Shown in pieces: positions 17,914 through 27,318 of a DNA stretch of 45,624 bases. How positions within the stretch are numbered: position 1 is the first letter of the stretch; every line of letters begins with the position of its first letter. Origin of the DNA: an uncultured Bacilli bacterium (GTDB lineage Bacteria; Bacillota_I; Bacilli_A; RF39; UBA660); the NCBI GenBank assembly GCA_944358445.1, contig CALVRC010000010.1:1-45624 (forward strand). The letters are read 5' to 3'. The notes beneath the pieces are model-generated. The model did not search any database. It was not told the DNA's origin and saw only the letters and a program-made list of their open reading frames with translations. Both the position numbers and the translations under genes were made by a program.

Positions 17914-18002
17914 TAAATTCCCCCCGATCAATTGTAATATACAAATAAAATATAACATTTTCTAGCATTTTTTACAATAATATCAATCAAAAAATAAAAA
18001 AA

Positions 18003-18022
18003 ACGAATAATTTTTTACTCGT
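18003..18022 (-). terminator. Terminator of the small membrane-protein gene
   Basis: ACGAGTAA / TTATTCGT (one G-U pair) followed by eight Ts on the minus strand, just after the stop of the gene at 18029. Confidence 0.8.
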
Positions 18023-18028
18023 TTAACC

Positions 18029-18388
18029 TCATTTGCGTAAAGTTTTTACTTTATCTATTTTCTGTTTCTTTTCTTTTTCTAATCCTTCTAAAATTCCTTT
18101 ATTCATATATATTTGATAATTTAATTCACCAATTTTAATTTTTTTAACAGCATAAGGAAGCATAGCACCAACAACATATCCTCCCATACTAGCAAACATC
18201 ATTAAATCAAGTGCCGGTACTTTAACTCTAGCCATGCCAACAATAGCTCCAATAGATCCACATATACAAACATGAGAAAACTTAACTTCTCTATCACTTA
18301 TTTGATTTTTTTTGTCAATATATCTATCAATTAATTCTTCTGTAACATCTATATTCATATTTATCTGTTTTAAACTTTTTTCTTTCAA
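18029..18388 (-). CDS. Small membrane protein of unknown function
   Basis: About 119 residues: a charged N-terminal helix, two hydrophobic segments (VCICGSIGAIVGMARV and LMMFASMGGYVVGAMLPY) forming a probable helical hairpin, and a Lys-rich C-terminal helix. I do not recognise the family. The start is uncertain: TTG 18388 follows GGTGAT by four bases; an ATG at 18358 lacks a clear site; further GTG/TTG codons lie upstream to 18400. It has its own terminator and is the last minus-strand gene before the plus-strand tRNA-linked island. Confidence 0.65.
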   Translation of the reverse strand: MKEKSLKQINMNIDVTEELIDRYIDKKNQISDREVKFSHVCICGSIGAIVGMARVKVPALDLMMFASMGGYVVGAMLPYAVKKIKIGELNYQIYMNKGILEGLEKEKKQKIDKVKTLRK

Positions 18389-18473
18389 AATAATCACCAA
18401 TTAGATATTATAAAGATTATTAAATTAAAAATCAATCATATTTTCCAATTTCACAAAATTATCTACAAAAGTA

Positions 18474-18502
18474 TTGAAAGATTTTTTTTATTTTGATATA
18501 AT
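18474..18502 (+). promoter_or_regulatory. Promoter of the tRNA-Met gene
   Basis: TTGAAA (18474-18479), 17 bp, TATAAT (18497-18502), 13 bp before the first base of the tRNA. Confidence 0.88.
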
Positions 18503-18515
18503 GTTTTTGTCGCAT

Positions 18516-18592
18516 GGCGAGATAGCTCAGTTGGCTAGAGCATACGGTTCATACCCGTAGGGTCGAGGGTTCGAATCCCCCTCTCGCTACCA
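18516..18592 (+). tRNA. tRNA-Met (CAT), elongator type
   Basis: 77 nt including the encoded CCA. Cloverleaf: acceptor GGCGAGA / TCTCGCT with a terminal G-U pair, as in Bacillus elongator tRNA-Met; D arm AGCTCAGTTGGCTAGAGC; anticodon stem TACGG/CCGTA around loop TTCATAC with CAT at 18550-18552; T arm GAGGGTTCGAATCCCCC. The last 45 nt are repeated three times downstream, so this is the intact copy of a site used repeatedly for integration. The anticodon CAT could also be lysidine-modified to read Ile, but the acceptor stem resembles elongator tRNA-Met. Confidence 0.96.
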
Positions 18593-18603
18593 ATATGTAT
18601 TTA

Positions 18604-18630
18604 ACTAGATAGAAATATCTAGTTTTTATT
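18604..18630 (+). terminator. Terminator of the tRNA-Met gene
   Basis: ACTAGATA / TATCTAGT around a GAAA loop, then TTTTATTTT. Near-identical hairpins follow the tRNA fragments at 22240-22284 and 24134-24178. Confidence 0.85.
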
Positions 18631-18703
18631 TTACCTTGATATTTAAAGGATTTTAACATCATCATATAATAATTATACTAGTTACCTAATATGAATATTA
18701 AAT

Positions 18704-18874
18704 ATCCATAAAAAATCTGTAGTTAAATTTTAGTTATTTTTTATAAAAAATAATTCAAATTTACTTATATTTAATCAAATCTATTCAAACTTACTCAAGT
18801 TTTACAAATAATAAAAAGCCTTAAAAATAAAGGCTTTTTTGATATTTTACACTAGACTACTAATTAGAACTTTT
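18704..18874 (+). repeat. Right-end repeat R1 of the tRNA-Met cassettes
   Basis: About 170 bp, closely similar to 22064-22239 and 23971-24133. It contains TTTGTAGTTAAATTTTAG-like sequence, two 14-nt direct repeats TTCAAATTTACTTA (18754) and TTCAAACTTACTCA (18784) spaced exactly 30 bp apart, an intrinsic terminator AAAGCCTT/AAGGCTTT plus Ts (18815-18840) and a CTAATTAGA box just before the att copy. Confidence 0.8.
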
Positions 18875-18919
18875 TTCATACCCGATAGGTTAAAGGTTCG
18901 AATCCCCCTCTCGCTACCA
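18875..18919 (+). repeat. att-like copy 1 of the tRNA-Met 3' half (degenerate)
   Basis: 45 nt aligning without gaps to 18548-18592 from TTCATACCCG to CCA. It has six substitutions, clustered in the variable/T-arm 5' side; the last 25 nt are identical. It is not a tRNA gene because the 5' half is missing. Confidence 0.88.
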
Positions 18920-19058
18920 ATTTTGATTATTTTACTAGGTTTTAAGCCTAGTTTTTTTATTGGGAATATCTAAACAGGTATTCCCATCTTTTTTATTTTA
19001 AGAATAAATGATATAATTATCTAAACAATAAATAGTAATGTGTAGAGAGGATTAGAAA

Positions 19059-19598
19059 ATGAATTTAGAACAATTAAAAAAAGATTGCATAAAAAAACAA
19101 AAGAAAGGTATCCATTTTATTCTTGCGTCAATAGTAATATGGACTATGGTTTTAATGGTACAATTAACAAGTTTTCCTATATTAACAAAAAATCTATTAA
19201 CATTTTGTTGTACAGCACCATTATTGCCAATATCGTTTTTAATATCCAAAATATTGAAAATACAATTTCAAGATAAAAGTAATCCATTAAATAATTTAGG
19301 TATATTATTTTCTGCAAATCAAATGATATATCTTTTAATAGCAATGTGGGTTTATCCTACATTGCCAGATAAAATGTTAATGGTTATTGCTATGATTTTT
19401 GGAGCTCATTTATTACCTTATGGTTGGTTATATAATTCAAAATCATATATGGCATTGTCAATAATTATTCCAATATTATCTCTAATAGTTGGTTTGAATT
19501 TTGCAAGTTATATTCTTGCAATGATGATGATAGTAATAGAAATAATATTTAGTGTACTTTTATTATTTGAAAATAAGAAAATAGGAAATAATAGTTAA
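19059..19598 (+). CDS. Four-to-five-TM membrane protein (DUF7010-like)
   Basis: 179 residues, mostly hydrophobic, with about five TM segments after a short basic N-terminus (LEQLKKDCIKKQKKGIHFI). The N-terminal pattern and length recall the DUF7010 family of uncharacterised Bacillota membrane proteins, but I cannot confirm this without a profile search. No catalytic motif is visible. GAGAGGATT precedes the ATG and a TATAAT box lies about 40 bp upstream. First of four genes in the unit; probably cotranscribed with the CPBP protease and ABC genes. Confidence 0.75.
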   Translation: MNLEQLKKDCIKKQKKGIHFILASIVIWTMVLMVQLTSFPILTKNLLTFCCTAPLLPISFLISKILKIQFQDKSNPLNNLGILFSANQMIYLLIAMWVYPTLPDKMLMVIAMIFGAHLLPYGWLYNSKSYMALSIIIPILSLIVGLNFASYILAMMMIVIEIIFSVLLLFENKKIGNNS

Positions 19599-19627
19599 AT
19601 AAATAGTAATTTGAAAGTGAGATAGTT

Positions 19628-20332
19628 ATGAAAAAAATATTTGAAAAGCACGAAACATTATTTTGTATATTGTTAATAGTATTCTATATAATAGTAAATT
19701 CATATTGCATACAAAATTTTGGAATAGAAGATTATAGAAGTACAATCATAAATACAATATTTTCGTTAGTGTTAATTTTTGTGATAGTAAAACTAAAAAG
19801 AGTTTCTTATTATGGACTAGCAAAAGTAAGCAATTTAAAAAGATATTTATATTTTATACCATTATTATTGATTATATCAGTTAATCTATGGAATGGTATT
19901 AACATCAATAATACACCAAACGAAATAATATTTTATATTTTAACAATGATTAATGTTGGCTTTTTAGAAGAAGTTATCTTTAGAGGTTTTTTATTTAAAA
20001 TGATGGAAAAAGACAATGTTAACAGAGCGATAATTATAAGTGCCTTTACTTTTGGTATAGGTCATATTATTAATTTGTTAAATGGTGCGAATTTAATTCC
20101 AACTTTAATGCAAGTATGTTATGCAATTTCAGCAGGGTATTTATTTGTTATAATATTTTATAAGAGTAAATCTCTTATTCCTTGTATCATAACTCATTGT
20201 TTAGTAAATTCGCTTTCTATATTTAATGTTGAAAACACAATATCATTATATGTAGCACCTATATTTTTAACAATAGTACCATTAGTTTATGCAATTTATA
20301 TAAATAAAAGCATAAAAAAACAAGACATATAA
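19628..20332 (+). CDS. CPBP family intramembrane metalloprotease (Abi/CAAX-like)
   Basis: 234 residues, about seven TM helices. The three family motifs are present: EEVIFRGFLF (motif 1, Glu-Glu-x-x-x-Arg), FGIGHIIN (motif 2, His) and HCLVNS (motif 3, His/Asn). Such proteins are membrane-embedded glutamic/metal proteases; in Gram-positives they often accompany bacteriocin loci as processing or immunity factors. Starts 29 bp after the previous gene and ends 24 bp before the ABC ATPase gene, so it fits an operon. Its substrate is unknown. Confidence 0.88.
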   Translation: MKKIFEKHETLFCILLIVFYIIVNSYCIQNFGIEDYRSTIINTIFSLVLIFVIVKLKRVSYYGLAKVSNLKRYLYFIPLLLIISVNLWNGININNTPNEIIFYILTMINVGFLEEVIFRGFLFKMMEKDNVNRAIIISAFTFGIGHIINLLNGANLIPTLMQVCYAISAGYLFVIIFYKSKSLIPCIITHCLVNSLSIFNVENTISLYVAPIFLTIVPLVYAIYINKSIKKQDI

Positions 20333-20356
20333 ATTACAATTTAGGAGTGAGATTTA

Positions 20357-21232
20357 ATGAATAAGAAAATATTAGAAATTAAAAATTTGACGAAATATTA
20401 TGGAAAAGTTCTAGGAGTAAAAGATTTATCGCTTACTCTTTATGAGGGAGAAGTATTTGGCTTTATTGGACCAAATGGAGCAGGAAAATCAACAACAATT
20501 AGGTCAATTATGAATCTCATTAATAAAACAGAAGGTTGTGTTTTACTAAATGGAAAAGAATTAAACAAAGATAATATTGCCTTAAAAGAATTAATCGGCT
20601 ATTTACCAAGTGAAATTCATTTATACGAAGATTTGTCTGTGAAAGAAATGTTAGATTATCATGAATCATTTTATAAAAAGAATTGTCATAAAAGGAGAAA
20701 AGAATTAGTTAAAAAACTAAAACTAGATGAGTCTAAAAAAATAGAAGAATTATCTTTGGGTAATTCAAAAAAATTAGGCATCGTTCTAGCATTTATGCAC
20801 GAACCAAAATTACTTATATTAGATGAACCTACAAGTGGATTAGATCCAATTATGCAACAAATATTTTATGATTTATTGAAAGAAGAAAAAGATAAGGGAA
20901 CGACAATTTTTTACTCAACACATATATTAAGTGAAATTTCTAAAGTTTGTGATCGTGTTGGAATTATAAAAGATGGTCATCTAATAACTGTGGAAACAAT
21001 GGAAGAAATGCAAAAGAAAAATTTAACATTTGTTACACTAGAATCAAATGAAATAACAAAAATTGTGGATGATTTAAAGTTAGATATTCACCCAAAAAAA
21101 GAAAATACAATCAGGTTTAAAAATGGATTATCTTCTGATAAACTTATAAAATCACTTGCTAAATATAAAATAGATAAAATATTAATAGAAGAAGCAACCT
21201 TGGAAGATGTATTCTTACATTACTATAAGTAG
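20357..21232 (+). CDS. ABC transporter ATP-binding protein
   Basis: 291 residues, the ATPase partner of the next gene. Walker A GPNGAGKST, Q-loop region YLPSEIHLYEDLSV, a divergent signature LSLGNSKKLGI in place of LSGGQ, Walker B LLILDEPTSGLD and switch His in YSTHILSEI. The ~80-residue C-terminal extension (VTLESNEITKIVDDL...) is typical of ABC-2 exporters of the bacteriocin/antibiotic self-protection group. TTTAGGAGTGA precedes the ATG. It is followed 10 bp later by its permease. Confidence 0.94.
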   Translation: MNKKILEIKNLTKYYGKVLGVKDLSLTLYEGEVFGFIGPNGAGKSTTIRSIMNLINKTEGCVLLNGKELNKDNIALKELIGYLPSEIHLYEDLSVKEMLDYHESFYKKNCHKRRKELVKKLKLDESKKIEELSLGNSKKLGIVLAFMHEPKLLILDEPTSGLDPIMQQIFYDLLKEEKDKGTTIFYSTHILSEISKVCDRVGIIKDGHLITVETMEEMQKKNLTFVTLESNEITKIVDDLKLDIHPKKENTIRFKNGLSSDKLIKSLAKYKIDKILIEEATLEDVFLHYYK

Positions 21233-21242
21233 GAGGTAGATT

Positions 21243-22034
21243 ATGTTTAAAAGAGAAATGAAAGTTAATTTTAAAAGTTTTCTAATATGGTTATTGTTAT
21301 TAATTGGAATTTTTACAATATCATTTTCAATTTATCCATCCATTATAAATAGTGATAATATAAAAATGATGGATGAAATGATGGAAATGTTTCCAGCAGA
21401 AGTATTAAAAGCCCTTAATATGGATATTTCATCCATTGATAGTGTATTTGGCTGGTTGAAGTCAGAGGGCTTTGTGTTTGCATTATTGCTAATAGGATGT
21501 TATTCTGGAATTCTTGGATCTAACATCTTATTAAAAGAAGAAAGTGATAAAACAATTGAATACTTAAATAGTTTACCTATTAAACGAAGTACCATAGTAT
21601 TAAATAAAGTTTTATGTGGATTATTGTATATAGTTTTAATGGTTGGAATTCTTGGAATATTTAATTATATAGGACTTTCTTTAAGTGGAGAATTTGATAA
21701 GAATTTATATATTTTACTTAGCATTACACCAATATTTTCTTCGGTAGTAATATACTTTGGATGTATGTTTTTATCAACTTTCACACATAAAACAAAAAAG
21801 ATGCTAGGTATCAGTCTAGGGATAGTTTTAATCAGTTATGTATTACAAGTATTATCTTCTCTTGCAGAAACAACAGAATTTCTTAAATATTTCTCTGCTT
21901 TTACTCTTGCTGATATAAGAAATGTAATAATGGATATTTCTATAAATCCTTTGTTGATATTAATAAGTATTGGTTTATCTGTAATGTTTTTAGGATTAAC
22001 TATAATTCGTTATAATAAAAAAGAATTGGTATAA
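21243..22034 (+). CDS. ABC-2 type transporter permease
   Basis: 263 residues with six TM helices: an N-terminal amphipathic start (FKREMKVNFKSFLIW), a large extracytoplasmic loop containing the acidic MMDEMMEMFPAEVLKALNMD stretch, and the typical EESDKTIEYLNSLPIKRSTI elbow before TM3. Forms a homodimeric or heteromeric exporter with the preceding ATPase. Strong AGGAGGT site. The repeat R2, with its terminator, begins about 30 bp after the stop, closing the operon. Confidence 0.88.
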   Translation: MFKREMKVNFKSFLIWLLLLIGIFTISFSIYPSIINSDNIKMMDEMMEMFPAEVLKALNMDISSIDSVFGWLKSEGFVFALLLIGCYSGILGSNILLKEESDKTIEYLNSLPIKRSTIVLNKVLCGLLYIVLMVGILGIFNYIGLSLSGEFDKNLYILLSITPIFSSVVIYFGCMFLSTFTHKTKKMLGISLGIVLISYVLQVLSSLAETTEFLKYFSAFTLADIRNVIMDISINPLLILISIGLSVMFLGLTIIRYNKKELV

Positions 22035-22063
22035 TTGTTAGATAAATTACAATTTATCGGTTA

Positions 22064-22239
22064 AATATTTATAAAAAATTTGTAGTTAAATTTTAGTTAT
22101 TTTTTATAAAAAATAATTCAAATTTATTTATATTTAATCAAATCTATTCAAACTTACTCGAATTTTACAAGTAATGAAAAGCCTTAAAAATAAAGGCTTT
22201 TTTGATATTTTGCACTATATCACTAATTAGAGCTTTTTT
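22064..22239 (+). repeat. Right-end repeat R2 of the tRNA-Met cassettes
   Basis: Second copy of the ~170-bp element. The 14-nt direct repeats start at 22117 and 22147, again exactly 30 bp apart. The terminator AAAGCCTT/AAGGCTTT (about 22178-22203) ends the ABC operon. Just before the repeat is the palindrome GATAAATT-AC-AATTTATC (22041-22058), partly kept before R3 as well. R2, att copy 2 and the left block of C3 together fill the gene-free stretch 22035-22518. Confidence 0.8.
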
Positions 22240-22284
22240 TTCATACCCGTAGGGTCGAGGGTTCGAATCCCCCTCTCGCTACCA
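22240..22284 (+). repeat. att-like copy 2 of the tRNA-Met 3' half (exact)
   Basis: 45 nt identical to 18548-18592, from TTCATACCCG in the anticodon loop to CCA. The identity continues downstream through the terminator hairpin and about 90 bp beyond, nearly matching what follows the intact tRNA. Confidence 0.92.
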
Positions 22285-22518
22285 ATATGTATTTAACTAG
22301 ATAGCAATATCTAGTTTTTGTTTTACCTTGATATTTAAAAGCTTTTAGCATCATAATATAATGATTATACTAGTTACCTAATATAAATATTAAATATCTA
22401 TAAAAAATTTGTAGTTATATTTTAGTAAATTTTTTATAAAAAAATTAATTGAAAATATTAACAAATTAATCACTATTAATGATATAATAATAGCTATATC
22501 TATAAAAGGAGGGAAAAT

Positions 22519-23220
22519 ATGGAATACAATATCTATTGTGATGAAAGTTGTCATTTAGCAAGCAATAATAGTAAATATATGTTAATCGGAGCAGTTTATT
22601 GTCCAAAATTTAAAGTTAAAAAAGTTAATGAATATATAAATCATTTAAAAAATAATTATAATTTGTCCAACAAAATAGAATTAAAATGGAATAAAGTTGA
22701 CAAAAAAACCGAAAAATTATATTTAGATATTATCAATTATTTTTTTAATAATGATGATTTAAAATTTAGAATTATTGTAATTGATAAAACAAAATTAAAC
22801 CACAAAAAATATAATCAAACTGAAAATGATTTTTATCACAAAGCATACTATGAAATGTTAAAATATATTATTATTCCTGGTAATTCATATAATATATACC
22901 CTGATATAAAAGACACACATTCATACTACTATCATCAAATAACACTAAATTATTTAAGGATTAAAATGTCTGACACTAATAAAAAAACCATAAAAAAAAT
23001 ACAACCAATTAAATCTTATGAAGCACCAATATTACAAATTAATGATATTTTAATTGGAGCATTATCATATTATTATAGAAACCTATCAACAAATAGTATA
23101 AAACTAAATATTATTCATGAAATTCAAAGATTATATCAGAATAGTTTTGATATATCATCATCCTATAGTAATACTAAATTTAATATATTTATTTGGAAAT
23201 CAAAAGATGACAGAAACTAA
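22519..23220 (+). CDS. DUF3800 domain protein
   Basis: 233 residues. N-terminal YCDES motif (acidic pair at the end of strand 1), IVIDKTK after strand 4, the IYPDIKD segment and the C-terminal INDILIGALSYYYR with its Asp: this is the DUF3800 pattern, an RNase H-like fold with acidic residues suggestive of a metal-dependent nuclease. Several conserved RNA motifs (DUF3800-I to -XI) have been reported next to genes of this family. AAAGGAGGG precedes the ATG. It overlaps the next gene by 14 nt, so the two are translated as a pair. The biological role of the family is not settled; defence or mobile-element functions are often suspected. Confidence 0.82.
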   Translation: MEYNIYCDESCHLASNNSKYMLIGAVYCPKFKVKKVNEYINHLKNNYNLSNKIELKWNKVDKKTEKLYLDIINYFFNNDDLKFRIIVIDKTKLNHKKYNQTENDFYHKAYYEMLKYIIIPGNSYNIYPDIKDTHSYYYHQITLNYLRIKMSDTNKKTIKKIQPIKSYEAPILQINDILIGALSYYYRNLSTNSIKLNIIHEIQRLYQNSFDISSSYSNTKFNIFIWKSKDDRN

Positions 23221-23719
23221 AAATAAATGTGGATTTAATGGCCCATTACCTAAAACTACTACAGATGATGAATTATACGATTATTTCATAAAAAATATAT
23301 ATTATGGCAATTTAAAAATAAATGGAATGAACATTAAAGTATTTACTACCCCATTTGAAGATAATAAAATGCAAGGATTTTTTCATTTAACCACTAAAAC
23401 TCAAAAAAAATTAGGAATAAAAATAAGAATGAAAGAATCTCGTGCTTATTTTATAAATTATGTTGCTCCTATGATAAAAAATTATTCAAAATGCCCTAAT
23501 TGTGAAGATACAAAATGCAATAAGATTAAAATATGGACTGCTCCATATAAAAACACAAAAAGAACAAAGTTACTATATAGTAATGATTTATATAGTTATA
23601 TAATCATTCTTGAAAAAAAGAAAAGTGATATGTACATAATAAGTTCATACTTAATTGATGAACCCAAATATTTACAAAAAGTATTAAAAGAATATAATGA
23701 ATATAAAAAAGCTTCTTAA
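23207..23719 (+). CDS. Putative BECR-fold (RelE/colicin-like) RNase partner of DUF3800
   Basis: 170 residues from ATG 23207, which overlaps the DUF3800 stop; the open frame extends to 23117 but lies inside that gene. The pattern GFFHLTTKT, SRAYFINYVAPMI, a Cys cluster CPNCEDTKC, then KIKIWTAPYKN, RTKLLYSNDLYSYIIILEKK and DMYIISSYLID resembles phage-type Barnase-EndoU-ColicinE5-RelE (PBECR) nucleases, where a basic strand leads into the EKRK-type strand and a conserved Tyr/Asp ending. That assignment rests on pattern recognition alone. The C-P-x-C-E-D-T-K-C insert is unusual. A toxin or antiviral RNase controlled by DUF3800 or the nearby RNA is an inference. Confidence 0.68.
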   Translation: MTETKNKCGFNGPLPKTTTDDELYDYFIKNIYYGNLKINGMNIKVFTTPFEDNKMQGFFHLTTKTQKKLGIKIRMKESRAYFINYVAPMIKNYSKCPNCEDTKCNKIKIWTAPYKNTKRTKLLYSNDLYSYIIILEKKKSDMYIISSYLIDEPKYLQKVLKEYNEYKKAS

Positions 23720-23738
23720 TTGTTTTTAAGAGGCTTTT
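23707..23738 (+). terminator. Hairpin after the putative RNase gene
   Basis: AAAAGCTTCTTAA / TTAAGAGGCTTTT: 13 bp with one G-U pair and a 6-nt loop, overlapping the stop codon. There is no long T run beyond the stem. The loop also carries the candidate -35 box of the RNA that follows. Confidence 0.6.
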
Positions 23739-23747
23739 AAATATAAT
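23720..23747 (+). promoter_or_regulatory. Candidate promoter of a small RNA
   Basis: TTGTTT (23720-23725), 16 bp, TATAAT (23742-23747). The expected start is GG at 23754-23755, just where the structured sequence begins. Confidence 0.5.
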
Positions 23748-23753
23748 ATAAAC

Positions 23754-23820
23754 GGACAACGCAACTAATAGATAGTTGCGTCTCCAGGACTCATATAACA
23801 CTTGGTCATTGAGTAACTAA
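23754..23820 (+). ncRNA. Candidate structured RNA associated with DUF3800
   Basis: Starting GGACAA, it has an 8-bp perfect hairpin CGCAACTA/TAGTTGCG (23760-23780, loop ATAGA). Then CCAGG (23784) can pair with CTTGG (23801) and ACTCA (23789) with TGAGT (23810), an interleaved order that forms an H-type pseudoknot or two alternative stems. It is far richer in G and C than its surroundings and lies behind a promoter-like sequence. Conserved RNAs near DUF3800 genes are known as a class; whether this is one of them needs a covariance-model search. It could also be read on the minus strand. From 23821 to R3 (23971) I see only AT-rich sequence. Confidence 0.55.
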
Positions 23821-23970
23821 ATTGTAGCACAAACTATATTTAAAGTCAATCCACGGATTTTATATGCACCACATTATATAGTATTCCAATAAACAATAAA
23901 ATATACTTTATATTGTAAAATTTCAAATTAAAAAATACCAATTTAGTAAATTACAATTTATCTATCAAGC

Positions 23971-24133
23971 ATATATAAAAAATTTGTAGTTATATTTTAG
24001 TTATTTTTTATAAAAAATAATTCAATTTTACTTATATTTAATCAAACTTACTTATACTTACTCAAACTTTATAAACCCTCAAAAATAAAGGCTTTTTGGG
24101 TATTTTGTATTATATTACTAATTAGAGCTTTTT
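23971..24133 (+). repeat. Right-end repeat R3 of the tRNA-Met cassettes
   Basis: Third, most diverged copy. Direct repeats TTCAATTTTACTTA (24021) and ATCAAACTTACTTA (24041), then ACTTACTCAAACTTT, so the spacing differs from the 30 bp in R1 and R2. The terminator's 5' arm has decayed (ACCCTCAAAAATAAAGGCTTTTTGGGT) but can still pair in a shifted register. The CTAATTAGA box and T run before the att copy are kept. Confidence 0.75.
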
Positions 24134-24178
24134 TTCATACCCGTAGGATCGAGGGTTCGAATCCCCCTCTCGCTACCA
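24134..24178 (+). repeat. att-like copy 3 of the tRNA-Met 3' half
   Basis: 45 nt with a single substitution (GTAGGATCG for GTAGGGTCG) relative to the intact gene, followed by the same terminator hairpin ACTAGATAGCAATATCTAGT. No further copy is seen between here and fhs, so the right boundary of the island is either this copy or a point after the next gene. Confidence 0.9.
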
Positions 24179-24318
24179 ATATGTATTTAACTAGATAGCA
24201 ATATCTAGTTTTATTTTTCCTTGATATATAAAGCCTTTCACCAAAACTATATAAATAATTATAGTATTTTAAAATGAAAAATGATATAATAATTTAAATT
24301 TTATTGAGGTGATTAAAT

Positions 24319-25578
24319 ATGTTAAAAATTGGTACAATAATAGGAGGCTATTTAAAAGGAAGTCAAATATATAAGCTTAATGATAATTGTATAGGCGTAT
24401 TTTGGAATGATACTTTTGTTATTGAAATTAATAACAGTTCTATTGAATCATGTCAAAATATAAATACAAATCAAAAAAAATCTTTGCCACTTTCTTTAGC
24501 CGGTGATATTATATTTGGCACTGCTGGAGTTTTAGCAATGGGTAACAAACAAACATATACAATAGAAATAACTTGGATTAATAAAGAGAAATCTTTAATA
24601 CAAATAAATTCAGCGTCAGCTTACAATTATTTTATAGCCAAAACATATGACAATGGAAAAAATAAATACTTTACAACAAACTATGGCTTAGATAAACCTC
24701 CAATAATTCAAACAATAAATTCATGTGAAAAATATATTCAAGAAACTCACAAAAAAATCTGTAATGATCTTTTAAACTCCAAAAATACATATACACTTAT
24801 GTTTCTTATTCCTTACTATAAAGCTCAATACGAAAACAATTTTTCTATGTTAGATACATATAAAAAATATGAAAAAGAATATAAAATAGTTGCTGAAATA
24901 CTAAGAAAAAAATTAAATAGCATCCTAATAGAAGTAATGAGCCAATTGGATCTATTTAATTACTATGAAGAGTTAAAAAAATGCGAAAATGATCCTGTTA
25001 AAAAAAATTTATTAATGAAATTTAGGCCTGATTTAGATGAGAATAAAATTAAAAAAGAATTAAAATCAGAATATATAAAAATGTTTAATCAAATTAAGCA
25101 AGAAAATAAAAAAGAAATTATTGAACCTACATTAGAAAAAAAACTAATAATCTCTAAATTCTATTCATTGGCTAAACAAATTCACGAAGAAAATGGATAC
25201 ATCTATTTTGCTAAAGATAAAGAAAGCCAATATATACAGCTTAAAAAATATTGCAATAATATGTCTCCCCTTCTTTACCAAAATTTAGAAAAAATTATAG
25301 ATCAAACTGTTACGGAAGAAGACATACCCTATCTTTACTTAGTCGATGTTAATGATATTTTTGGCAAATTTCCCACCCACTATAGGCTAAGTGCCATTGT
25401 TAATTGCTACTTTGGTAAAAACTATTTTAACCAAGCAAACACAGAAAATAATAAAACTAATAATACAAATTTTAACAAATATGATGAATTAAAAAAGCTA
25501 AAGGAATTATTAGATATTGAGGCTATCACCCAAGAAGAATTTGAACAAGAAAAAGCTAAAATTTTAAATAATAATTAG
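24319..25578 (+). CDS. SHOCT-domain protein of unknown function
   Basis: 419 residues, soluble. The N-terminal ~110 residues look like a bacterial PH-like module (DNCIGVFWNDTFVIEINNSS, a Gly-rich AGDIIFGTAGVLAMG loop, YTIEITWINKEKSLIQI), then a Lys/Glu-rich helical middle (about 130-370). The C-terminus has a SHOCT domain (DELKKLKELLDIEAITQEEF), a short helical module often at the ends of membrane-linked or oligomeric proteins. TTGAGGTG precedes the ATG and a TGATATAAT box lies about 35 bp upstream, like the promoters of the other units. It may be a fourth cassette cargo or the resident gene next to the tRNA; no att copy follows to decide. Confidence 0.72.
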   Translation: MLKIGTIIGGYLKGSQIYKLNDNCIGVFWNDTFVIEINNSSIESCQNINTNQKKSLPLSLAGDIIFGTAGVLAMGNKQTYTIEITWINKEKSLIQINSASAYNYFIAKTYDNGKNKYFTTNYGLDKPPIIQTINSCEKYIQETHKKICNDLLNSKNTYTLMFLIPYYKAQYENNFSMLDTYKKYEKEYKIVAEILRKKLNSILIEVMSQLDLFNYYEELKKCENDPVKKNLLMKFRPDLDENKIKKELKSEYIKMFNQIKQENKKEIIEPTLEKKLIISKFYSLAKQIHEENGYIYFAKDKESQYIQLKKYCNNMSPLLYQNLEKIIDQTVTEEDIPYLYLVDVNDIFGKFPTHYRLSAIVNCYFGKNYFNQANTENNKTNNTNFNKYDELKKLKELLDIEAITQEEFEQEKAKILNNN

Positions 25579-25617
25579 ATATATATTTCAATTAAAAATA
25601 ATTAAAAAAAATCAAAA

Positions 25618-25655
25618 AACTAGATAAATAAGATTCACTTCTCATTCATCTAGTT
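25618..25655. terminator. Bidirectional terminator between island and fhs
   Basis: AACTAGAT / ATCTAGTT with a 22-nt loop, T runs on both sides. The stem arms match those of the tRNA-Met terminator, though loop and context differ. Serves the converging SHOCT gene and fhs. Confidence 0.7.
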
Positions 25656-25659
25656 TTTT

Positions 25660-27318
25660 TTAAAATAAACCATAAATAGTTCCATCAGCATCAATTTTCA
25701 TATTTTCATAAGCTGGATTTTTAGATAAACCTGGCATCGTCATAATCTTACCCATATAAACAACTATAAACCCAGCTCCACTATTTACCTTCAAATTTCT
25801 AACCGTTATTTCATAATTATTAGGATAACCAAGTTTTTTAGGATCATCACTTATAGAATACTGTGTTTTAGCCACACATATTGGTAATTTATCTAATTTT
25901 AATTTTTCTATTTCCTTTATATTTTCTAAAGCATCCTTTAAATAATTCACCTTTCTAGCATGATATATTTCTTTAGATATTTTTTCAATCTTATTTTTAA
26001 TACTATCATTTTCATCATAAAGTAAATAAAAATCTTTCTCTTTAGTACATAATAAAGCTATTTTTTTAGCTAAATCTAAAGCTCCTTCTCCCCCATTTTC
26101 ATAAGACGATGAAATAGCAAATTCACATTCCAAATCTTCACAATATTTTTTAACATATCTAATTTCTTCTTCATCATCAAACGAAAATTTGTTTAAACAA
26201 ACAATAATGTTATCTAAATACTTTTTCATATTTTCTATATGCACTTTTAAATTACAAATGCCCTTTTCCAAATAATCCATATTTTTAGTATTTAATTCAC
26301 TCTTACTCATTCCACCATTATATTTTAAACTTCTAATAGTTGCATTAATAACAATTACACTTGGTTTTAAATTACCTTTTCTACACTTAATATCTAAAAA
26401 CTTTTCAGCTCCTAAATCAGCTCCAAATCCAGCTTCCGTAATTACATAATCAGCTAACTTTAATCCTAACTTAGTCGCAATCAAACTATTACATCCATGC
26501 GCGATATTAGCAAAAGGTCCACCATGGATTATAACAGGATTATTTTCTAGAGTTTGAACCAAATTAGGTTTAATAGCATCTTTAAGCAATATTGTCATAG
26601 CGTCCTCTACATGTAAATCCTTAACAAATAAAGGTTTTCCAGTAATATCATAAGCAAATAAAATATTACTAATTTTTTCCTTTAAATCCATCAAATCTTT
26701 AGCTAAACATAAAATAGCCATAACCTCAGTAGCCACAGTAATAGAATAGTGATTTTCATGAGCCACATCCATACCTAAATCTAAACCTACCGTAACCGAT
26801 CTAAGTGCTCTATCATTCATATCAACACATCTATCAAATAAAATTTTATTTTTATCAATATTTAAACTATTACCTTGAAATAAATGATTATCAATAGCCG
26901 CACAAAGCAAATTATTAGCCGCACCAATTGCATGCATATCACCAGTAAAATGTAAATTAATATCATCCATTGGGACAACCTGTGAATATCCACCACCAGC
27001 TGCCCCGCCTTTAATTCCAAAAACTGGTCCTAAAGAAGGTTCTCTTAAAACAGCTAAGCTGTTAAACCCTAGTCTCCTCATTCCATCGTGAATACCAATA
27101 CTCATAGTGGTTTTTCCTTCACCAAAAGGTGTTGGATTAATTGAAGTAACTAAAATTAGTTTTCCATTTTTATTATTTAAATTATTTAAAATATCCAAAT
27201 TAATCTTAGCTTTATATTTCCCATAACATTCTAAATAATCCTTATCAATATTTAACTTAGAAGATATATCTTCTATTTTCAACATTTTGCATCCTCTTGC
27301 TATTTCAATATCCGTCAT
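25660..27318 (-). CDS. fhs: Formate--tetrahydrofolate ligase
   Basis: ATP-dependent synthesis of 10-formyl-THF from formate, feeding purine and fMet synthesis. 552 residues, normal length. Family start DIEIARGCKM...YGKYKAKI, ATP loop TSINPTPFGEGKTTMSIG, FGIKGGAAGGGYSQVVPMDDINLHFTGDMHAI, ITEAGFGADLGAEKF and the end NPAYENMKIDADGTIYGLF. AGAGGTGA precedes the ATG. First minus-strand gene right of the island and convergent with it. Confidence 0.97.
   Translation of the reverse strand: MTDIEIARGCKMLKIEDISSKLNIDKDYLECYGKYKAKINLDILNNLNNKNGKLILVTSINPTPFGEGKTTMSIGIHDGMRRLGFNSLAVLREPSLGPVFGIKGGAAGGGYSQVVPMDDINLHFTGDMHAIGAANNLLCAAIDNHLFQGNSLNIDKNKILFDRCVDMNDRALRSVTVGLDLGMDVAHENHYSITVATEVMAILCLAKDLMDLKEKISNILFAYDITGKPLFVKDLHVEDAMTILLKDAIKPNLVQTLENNPVIIHGGPFANIAHGCNSLIATKLGLKLADYVITEAGFGADLGAEKFLDIKCRKGNLKPSVIVINATIRSLKYNGGMSKSELNTKNMDYLEKGICNLKVHIENMKKYLDNIIVCLNKFSFDDEEEIRYVKKYCEDLECEFAISSSYENGGEGALDLAKKIALLCTKEKDFYLLYDENDSIKNKIEKISKEIYHARKVNYLKDALENIKEIEKLKLDKLPICVAKTQYSISDDPKKLGYPNNYEITVRNLKVNSGAGFIVVYMGKIMTMPGLSKNPAYENMKIDADGTIYGLF

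Follow-up and report, generated by a model that had tools for sequence, protein, structure and literature searches.

Genomic islands in which units accumulate behind a tRNA gene, and tandem elements without an integrase of their own, are known from several bacterial groups. According to the sections of the three papers drawn on here, the flexible genomic island fGI-2 of Candidatus (Ca.) Methylopumilus lies behind tRNA-Lys and contains repeats of the last 20 nt, with sizes from 330 bp to 42 kb (PMC10872708), Ca. Actinomarinales have cassettes of genes located at tRNAs, which are recognizable by a repeat of the tRNA and are also transferred between genera (PMC7771536), and Dehalococcoides harbors tandem islands at ssrA, of which 16 contain an integration module (serine integrase) and 15, suggested to be cis-mobilizable, do not (PMC3146451). 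Here we describe an array of this kind in a stretch of 45,624 nt from an uncultured Bacilli bacterium (assembly GCA_944358445.1, contig CALVRC010000010.1, positions 1 to 45,624 of the forward strand; in the following "the window"), which had been noticed in an inspection of the sequence alone, referred to below as the original prediction. Behind an intact tRNA-Met gene three units are lined up, each closing with the same element and a displaced copy of the tRNA 3' half. We read the locus, with a probability of roughly 65%, as a tRNA-anchored array of mobile cassettes which are inserted site-specifically at tRNA-Met by a recombinase acting in trans.

Structure of the Array behind tRNA-Met

The tRNA-Met(CAT) gene is the only tRNA gene that ARAGORN identified in the whole window. 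The start-to-start distances of the tRNA halves are 327, 3365 and 1894 bp and define units 1, 2 and 3 (Table 1). The coordinates and the layout of the original prediction (tRNA, three 45-nt copies, units of these lengths and a repeated element ahead of each copy) were correct. Its description of a first unit without cargo, followed by units with plus-strand cargo, agrees with the ORF (open reading frame) content, as unit 1 lacks any ORF of at least 60 aa and units 2 and 3 contain plus-strand genes. It had also reported neither an integrase nor a phage gene; none was recognized in the seven cargo proteins, nor was a tyrosine recombinase found in the window.

Every displaced half is preceded by a right element of ~180 bp, termed R (reference copy 22061-22239), in which repeats of TCAAA(C/T)TTA occur at a spacing of ~10 bp (22117-22158). 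R closes with ACTAATTAGAGCTTTTTTTT, and the sequence then switches to the tRNA 3' half at CATACCC, i.e., at the anticodon. Unit 2 additionally opens with a conserved left end, LA, which the original prediction had overlooked. In LA two terminator hairpins are followed by TGATATAAT within a conserved box ending AAATAGTAAT(T/G)TG, by a stretch resembling a ribosome binding site and by the first gene.

Seven terminator-like sites were found within 18400-25700 compared to 1.0 in shuffled sequences, and terminators are present in both LA and R. The promoter scan lends little support (82 sigma-70-like sites versus 67.7 in shuffles, standard deviation 8.7), and because such matches scarcely exceed the shuffles, the LA promoter is deduced from the conservation of its box. 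R folds only slightly better than its shuffles (z -1.8 and -1.7), and for the end of R together with the half on the minus strand a z of -2.9 was obtained in this comparison with shuffles. In an Rfam-type RNA scan of 18000-26000 the tRNA alone reached the gathering score, and no known RNA element was found in R. The end of R was also considered as a mimic of the tRNA D-arm (TAGAGC at the same spacing); this resemblance is not significant, since 1127 of 20000 shuffles match it and a second register fits as well.

TABLE 1. Features of the array and its surroundings, with positions in the window.
Feature	Position	Strand	Remarks
tRNA-Met(CAT), intact, elongator type; anchor and presumed insertion target	18516-18592	+	ARAGORN; Rfam tRNA 64.3 bits
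LB, left end of unit 1	18593-18716	+	92.7% to 22285-22410; same start in G007, G027, G030, G060, G064
R of unit 1	18698-18876	+	92.7% to 22061-22239; same cargo-less unit in G016 (L072)
Displaced tRNA-Met 3' half no. 1	18875-18919	+	6 mismatches to last 45 nt of tRNA
LA, left end of unit 2	18920-19052	+	terminator hairpins 18934-18952 and 18961-18986; extended -10 promoter box; AAATAGTAAT leader
Unit 2: DUF7010 protein	19059-19598	+	Pfam 1.3e-64
Unit 2: Rce1/CAAX-type protease	19628-20332	+	Pfam 6.4e-20
Unit 2: ABC transporter ATPase	20357-21232	+	Pfam 8.6e-29
Unit 2: ABC-2 type permease	21243-22034	+	Pfam 1.3e-20
R of unit 2	22053-22239	+	palindrome, spaced repeats, terminator 22176-22202, ACTAATTAGAGC end
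Displaced tRNA-Met 3' half no. 2	22240-22284	+	identical, 0 mismatches
Left end of unit 3: LB (22285-22410) plus partial R copy	22285-22454	+	partial R copy at 22390-22454 (first 62 nt of R); similar layout in G060 (L138)
Unit 3: DUF3800 protein, PADLOC PDC-M04A	22519-23220	+	Pfam 3e-11; PADLOC 3.8e-71
Unit 3: second gene (from first start codon), PADLOC PDC-M04B	23117-23719	+	PADLOC 2.3e-26, residues 50-198
R of unit 3	23971-24134	+	84% to 22061-22239
Displaced tRNA-Met 3' half no. 3	24134-24178	+	1 mismatch
LB-like sequence past last half	24179-24269	+	82.6% to LB; native tRNA terminator or further left end
SHOCT-domain gene	24319-25578		after last half, ahead of FTHFS gene; no R behind
Chromosomal FTHFS gene	25660-27318	-	

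Distribution of the Cassette Ends

In the following, G numbers designate comparison genomes, one per species, and L numbers the stretches of them that were examined. The original prediction had proposed to search related genomes for the tRNA core together with the repeated element, and the junction does recur. A search for the R/half junction pattern over 84,980 species genomes yielded 40 stretches, in 36 of which (34 bins) a tRNA-Met 3' half with CATACC at its start directly adjoins R; the remaining four are chance matches. According to the record titles, the 36 sites derive mostly from uncultured Bacilli, besides two from Tenericutes and one each from Clostridia, Ca. Onthousia and Ca. Coprovivens.

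Within the genus, R was detected in 15 of 44 genomes (E < 1e-13), in some of them only in part. On the level of the family it occurs in 17 of 386 genomes and 12 of 150 genera (E 1e-12), and across the class a strict R pattern, by which the copies of the window itself are not recovered, was found in two of 395 genomes, both belonging to the family. LA is present in 27 of the 386 family genomes and 20 of the 150 genera, with matches of at least 90 nt in 17 genomes from 13 genera. R is kept to its final base across genera, and beyond that base a host-like tRNA half follows. The alignment of 47 sequences used for the anatomy of R contains some chance matches. In the genome of the window itself (1.43 Mb, 40 contigs, 91% complete), R with its half is confined to the array among the sites found, two further matches being AT-rich scraps of 22-26 nt.

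As the R/half junction recurs in other genera, a chance arrangement is excluded. A mere tandem duplication of the tRNA end was ruled out as well: in other genera, both R and LA are found again next to halves of different sequence.

Variation of the Locus and Transfer between Genera

The locus was compared between species. Both in the window and in G015 and G028 the tRNA is flanked by an AMP-binding-type gene (so named by eye) and the FTHFS gene, and in G030, G032 and G002 an R-half lies ~100 bp ahead of FTHFS. In other congeners the neighbor is tRNA-Glu; among these, G021 contains one SDR unit between tRNA-Met and tRNA-Glu, and in G022 and G035 the two tRNA genes are 91 bp apart without any unit. 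No R-half was found in the congeners G015, G022 and G035. The DUF3800 unit is present in G004 and G060, and the 327-bp unit of the window also occurs in G016. An identical array in all relatives, which the original prediction had named as the outcome that would speak against it, was not seen between species, and the units differ in number and content.

Near-identical cargo stands in the cassette frame in different genera. Over 705 bp, the Rce1 gene of unit 2 shows a nucleotide identity of 98.6% to its counterpart in G650 (Ca. Coprovivens) and of 95.3% to that in G646, with FTHFS proteins being 60% identical. Matches to Rce1 were found in 13 of 386 genomes. The three copies with at least 95% identity are all located in the cassette frame: in G650 with R and half on the right and the contig end on the left, in G646 with tRNA and LA on the left and a degraded R, lacking a recognized half, on the right. 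The ten copies with at most 80% identity have no LA and, within 1.5 kb, R-like scraps of at most 41 nt. For the DUF3800 gene, the nucleotide identities are 97.7% to G060, 89.5% to G004 and 86.6% to G446, the FTHFS protein of the latter being 55% identical.

Two further observations concern sites of this type. In L084 (G033), tRNA-Met is separated from a displaced half by a 13-kb island of glycan-type genes (assigned by eye; between 3834 and 17240), and the right end before this half is of a different type; no recombinase was recognized in this island, and the same type of right end is found in G001 (L055). In L110 (G562) and L253/L129 (G545) an R-half-LA junction lies near genes for ribosomal proteins and processing (by eye), and these stretches contain no tRNA gene.

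Relation of the tRNA Half to the Cassette Ends

R and half were compared in 20 hand-picked genomes with known genus labels, which provided 24 junctions. Of 233 pairs from different genera, 82 had an R similarity of 90% or more, and in 79 of these 82 the half was less alike than R (mean of the half 0.795). G000 and G650, for example, share 98% of R over 110 nt and 79% of the half. For the half-LA junctions, a likewise hand-picked set was used, in which 17 of 22 genomes gave 21 junctions with LA filtered at 72% identity to LA of the window; the similarities of LA and half had a correlation of r = -0.11 over 189 pairs. Halves resemble the tRNA of their own host with values of 0.91-1.00 and those of others with means of 0.76-0.84 (seven junctions in the six genomes scored of 22 given, those in which the pattern located both the tRNA half and the displaced half). 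The own tRNA was tied with that of the best other genome in all seven junctions and strictly better in none, the tied genomes belonging to the same genus or sharing the tRNA type.

Thus, the part that genera have in common is LA to R, the half being mostly the host's. A half can nevertheless travel, as G545 (L253) contains an interior half whose type is that of another genus and which is embedded in a block of 543 bp which is 95% identical to G562, with neighbors at ~65%. The host type of halves within the tRNA gene itself is weak evidence, since these are constrained by tRNA function. Host-like halves could be explained by selection for a working tRNA, by gene conversion, by donors from within the genus or by duplication of the target.

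Possible Mechanisms of Insertion

According to the reading which we favor, a cassette would consist of LA with its terminators and its own promoter box, the cargo, and R with its terminator and the 10-bp-spaced repeats resembling arm sites. Insertion would take place at the elongator tRNA-Met or at a displaced 3' half, with the left junction at the anticodon, where R meets CATACCC. Each insertion would keep the tRNA intact and add one copy of the 3' half, so that units would pile up. The cassettes would presumably pass through circular intermediates, and their genes may be expressed from the LA promoter box. Most likely, the enzyme would be a tyrosine recombinase provided in trans by a visiting phage, plasmid or conjugative element. 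A tyrosine recombinase is favored on account of the position of the junction in the anticodon loop, where tyrosine integrases classically act, and of the arm-like repeats in R.

In a profile search no tyrosine recombinase was detected in 91 loci (966,334 bases) around tRNA-Met, R or LA sites, a set which includes tRNA-Met loci without R and some overlaps. The profile was based on 31 tyrosine recombinases of these genomes, mainly of Xer type, and detected five of five control loci, three of them outside the training set. The genome of the window contains eight PF00589 matches, all on other contigs. In each of the R-bearing genomes G021, G438, G367, G562 and G704 (90-95% complete; G021 and G704 with a degraded R) just two PF00589 matches were found, both Xer-sized, which from size and presence would be XerC and XerD. 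Matches to serine recombinases (PF00239) were not found in the R-bearing G367 and G562 but are present in the other eight of ten genomes searched. Among the integrase-neighborhood matches listed, none placed R near a recombinase that is not Xer-sized. The original prediction had assumed an integrase supplied from elsewhere. This is in line with the loci, at which no recombinase was found, although a source within the same genome is unsupported, as five R-bearing genomes contain just two Xer-sized proteins each and two of them also lack a serine recombinase match.

Several observations weigh against mobile cassettes moved by a recombinase in trans. No recombinase is tied to the site, and G367 and G562 offer nothing beyond the two Xer-sized proteins. 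Among 14 R-bearing genomes, R shares a contig solely with Xer-sized recombinases (G188, G438 and G704), at ~20-40 kb from R, and G704 has another one at a greater distance. R was not found in IMG/VR, INPHARED and PLSDB, nor LA in IMG/VR (exact box) and INPHARED; four matches of the R search in IMG/VR were all without a tRNA half, and the single one in INPHARED, from an uncultured phage, covers 56 nt of the tRNA-half region only. An excised circle was not seen. Copies in G021, G704, G646 and unit 3 are degraded, and for 28 of the 36 true R sites an end of the stretch is no more than ~410 nt away, so that few arrays are complete. Because R sites sit at stretch ends, as is expected for a repeat that breaks assemblies, most arrays are seen in part only. 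Finally, a carried attP core is expected to follow LA if the crossover is at the anticodon, or R if it is at the 3' end, whereas the half tracks neither of them.

One alternative is duplicative insertion, in which the unit from LA to R would contain no tRNA sequence and staggered cuts around the 43-nt 3' half would duplicate the half of the host. Cas1-type integrases duplicate the CRISPR repeat and casposases duplicate their target in such a way. Genus after genus LA begins right after CCA and R stops right before CATACC, and a mostly host-like half between an LA and an R common to genera is what this process would leave behind. The foreign-type half which G545 shares with G562 in one block is difficult to reconcile with it, the host type of the halves within the tRNA gene counts for little for the reason given above, and to our knowledge a 43-bp duplication is unusual outside CRISPR; we regard duplicative insertion as unlikely. 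By analogy, a capture system can be imagined in which standardized expression cassettes, with conserved ends and a promoter and terminators of their own but without tRNA sequence, would be added at the elongator tRNA-Met gene by a non-integron enzyme that duplicates the 43-nt tRNA end of the host, the array growing in a manner similar to CRISPR adaptation, and we consider this a doubtful, tentative proposal.

Homologous exchange, with LA and R as homology arms and copy numbers changing by unequal crossing over, would require no dedicated recombinase today. It accounts for host-like halves on both sides and for the missing enzyme, and genes resembling pilus or competence genes were seen by eye near some loci (L066, L074). 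Under such a process, scattered breakpoints in R would be expected, but R haplotypes are shared up to the last base before CATACC, and the first entry into each genus at the identical junction is left unexplained. We regard homologous exchange as rather improbable.

Decayed integrative elements, i.e., satellites of prophages or of integrative and conjugative elements which lost their integrase and left the arrays as fossils, would fit the degraded half at 18875, the half of G021 with nine mismatches, R of unit 3 with 84% and R of G704 with 75% over 97 nt, but are very unlikely in view of R being 98-100% alike between some genera and cargo 98.6% identical, which indicates recent movement, and of the cargo proteins examined, in which no phage or transfer gene was recognized. 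That cassettes exploit the host's XerC/XerD, like the integrative mobile elements exploiting Xer (IMEX) at dif, appears hardly credible too: the Xer-sized pair represents the only PF00589 matches in G021, G438, G367, G562 and G704, but the target is a tRNA half and the resemblance of the junctions to the dif site of Bacillus subtilis does not exceed that of shuffles, although the dif sites of the hosts may differ.

Left Ends, Cargo and Neighboring Genes

From the 20 LA regions examined, 13 are located directly behind tRNA-Met or its half, and seven comprise the promoter part only or lie away from it. Units 1 and 3 of the window begin with LB, and what follows tRNA-Met or its half in further genomes of the genus looks similar to the start of LB. 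Another type of left end was observed in L240 (8346-8460) and L249 (minus strand, 124-1), which are 98% identical over 89 bp and belong to two genera. It has the same promoter box before cassette-type genes, no tRNA was found in these stretches, and it may belong to another target site. In L195 (14782-20000) and L199 (minus orientation, after its R), long one-strand runs of small accessory genes follow LA, by eye XRE regulators, lipoproteins and GNAT- and glyoxalase-like genes. No R was recognized between them, and they are perhaps old, worn-out cassettes. The LA promoter/leader box also occurs in the genome of the window on contig C30 (L243, minus strand, 99-60), ahead of a gene in a fragment which by eye resembles a conjugative element, with genes of antirestriction, methylase and sortase-like type; this might connect the cassettes with a helper element.

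The two genes of unit 3 bear PADLOC names with the prefix PDC, which we take to mean phage defence candidate. Genes adjoining R or LA in other genomes encode XRE and MarR regulators, flavodoxin, VTT-domain, SDR and DUF1706 proteins and small membrane proteins. Judged by eye and by the Pfam matches of 20 proteins, including 17 from cargo, there is no recognizable phage or transfer gene; no dedicated search was made. The SHOCT-domain gene behind the last half has an LA-like -10 box upstream and represents either a native gene or a cassette minus its right end. Beside tRNA-Met, the window contains an ORF on the minus strand (18029-18400) with look-alikes in L138 and L078; an unnamed protein of 121-123 aa is thus encoded at this position in several genomes of the genus (by eye).

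Significance and Comparison with Known Systems

If the favored reading is true, the arrays would constitute a route of gene sharing across genera in barely studied Bacilli, of which some come from chicken gut. The small cassettes would be ready to express, and candidate phage-defence genes are among their cargo. Two puzzles arise from it: which enzyme moves enzyme-less units where only two Xer-sized tyrosine recombinases may be recognized, and how a host-like tRNA half comes to stand between cassette ends common to genera. The conserved ends could be used as a probe for mining cargo genes, and their repetition may explain the frequent termination of metagenome contigs at the locus.

The term "integron-like" in the original prediction is appropriate only as an analogy. 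Chromosomal integrons likewise consist of small, uniformly oriented cassettes that share recombination sites, with the enzyme encoded outside the cassette. Here a tRNA half takes the place of the site, promoter box and terminators belong to the cassettes themselves, and neither an integron integrase (IntI) nor an attC site has been shown; integrons are recognized by an IntI gene next to attI, and no tyrosine recombinase was found in the 91 loci. IMEX and pdif modules are mobile modules without a recombinase, as the units described here, which differ from them in that no dif-like site (B. subtilis dif only) was found at their junctions. With cis-mobilizable elements (CIMEs) and tandem accretion the array shares att-flanked units in tandem at an RNA gene, and its units indeed have att-like flanks and no recognized recombinase or transfer genes.

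Tycheposons are tRNA-anchored cargo elements as well, with tRNA-Met among their targets, but according to the part of the source considered they comprise 4-200 kb and contain a tyrosine recombinase (PMC10872708), whereas the window's units of 0.3-3.4 kb have none. In the described portion of the Dehalococcoides data, sister islands at ssrA carry the serine integrase module (PMC3146451), and here no enzyme-bearing sister unit was found. A match to a serine recombinase, as used by staphylococcal cassette chromosomes or these ssrA-type islands, was not found in the R-bearing G367 and G562.

The statement of the original prediction that no named system has this layout was too strong, given the tRNA-anchored additive islands and tandem integrase-less cis-mobilizable elements described outside the Bacilli in the portions of the literature used here (PMC10872708, PMC7771536, PMC3146451). 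As tRNA islands, cassettes and CIMEs have been described elsewhere, the kind of system is known, and in kind the locus is best read as an additive tRNA island or CIME array. For a standardized expression-cassette frame in Bacilli no description was found in the open-licence literature, most subscription journals being outside this scope. Like the additive flexible genomic islands, the locus combines repeated 3' tRNA fragments in series behind an intact tRNA gene with variable cassettes; where the sections of those reports considered here describe no conserved promoter-bearing left end or right element (PMC10872708, PMC7771536), the cassettes of the Bacilli share both, R occurring in 12 of the 150 genera sampled and LA, counted from matches of at least 90 nt, in 13.

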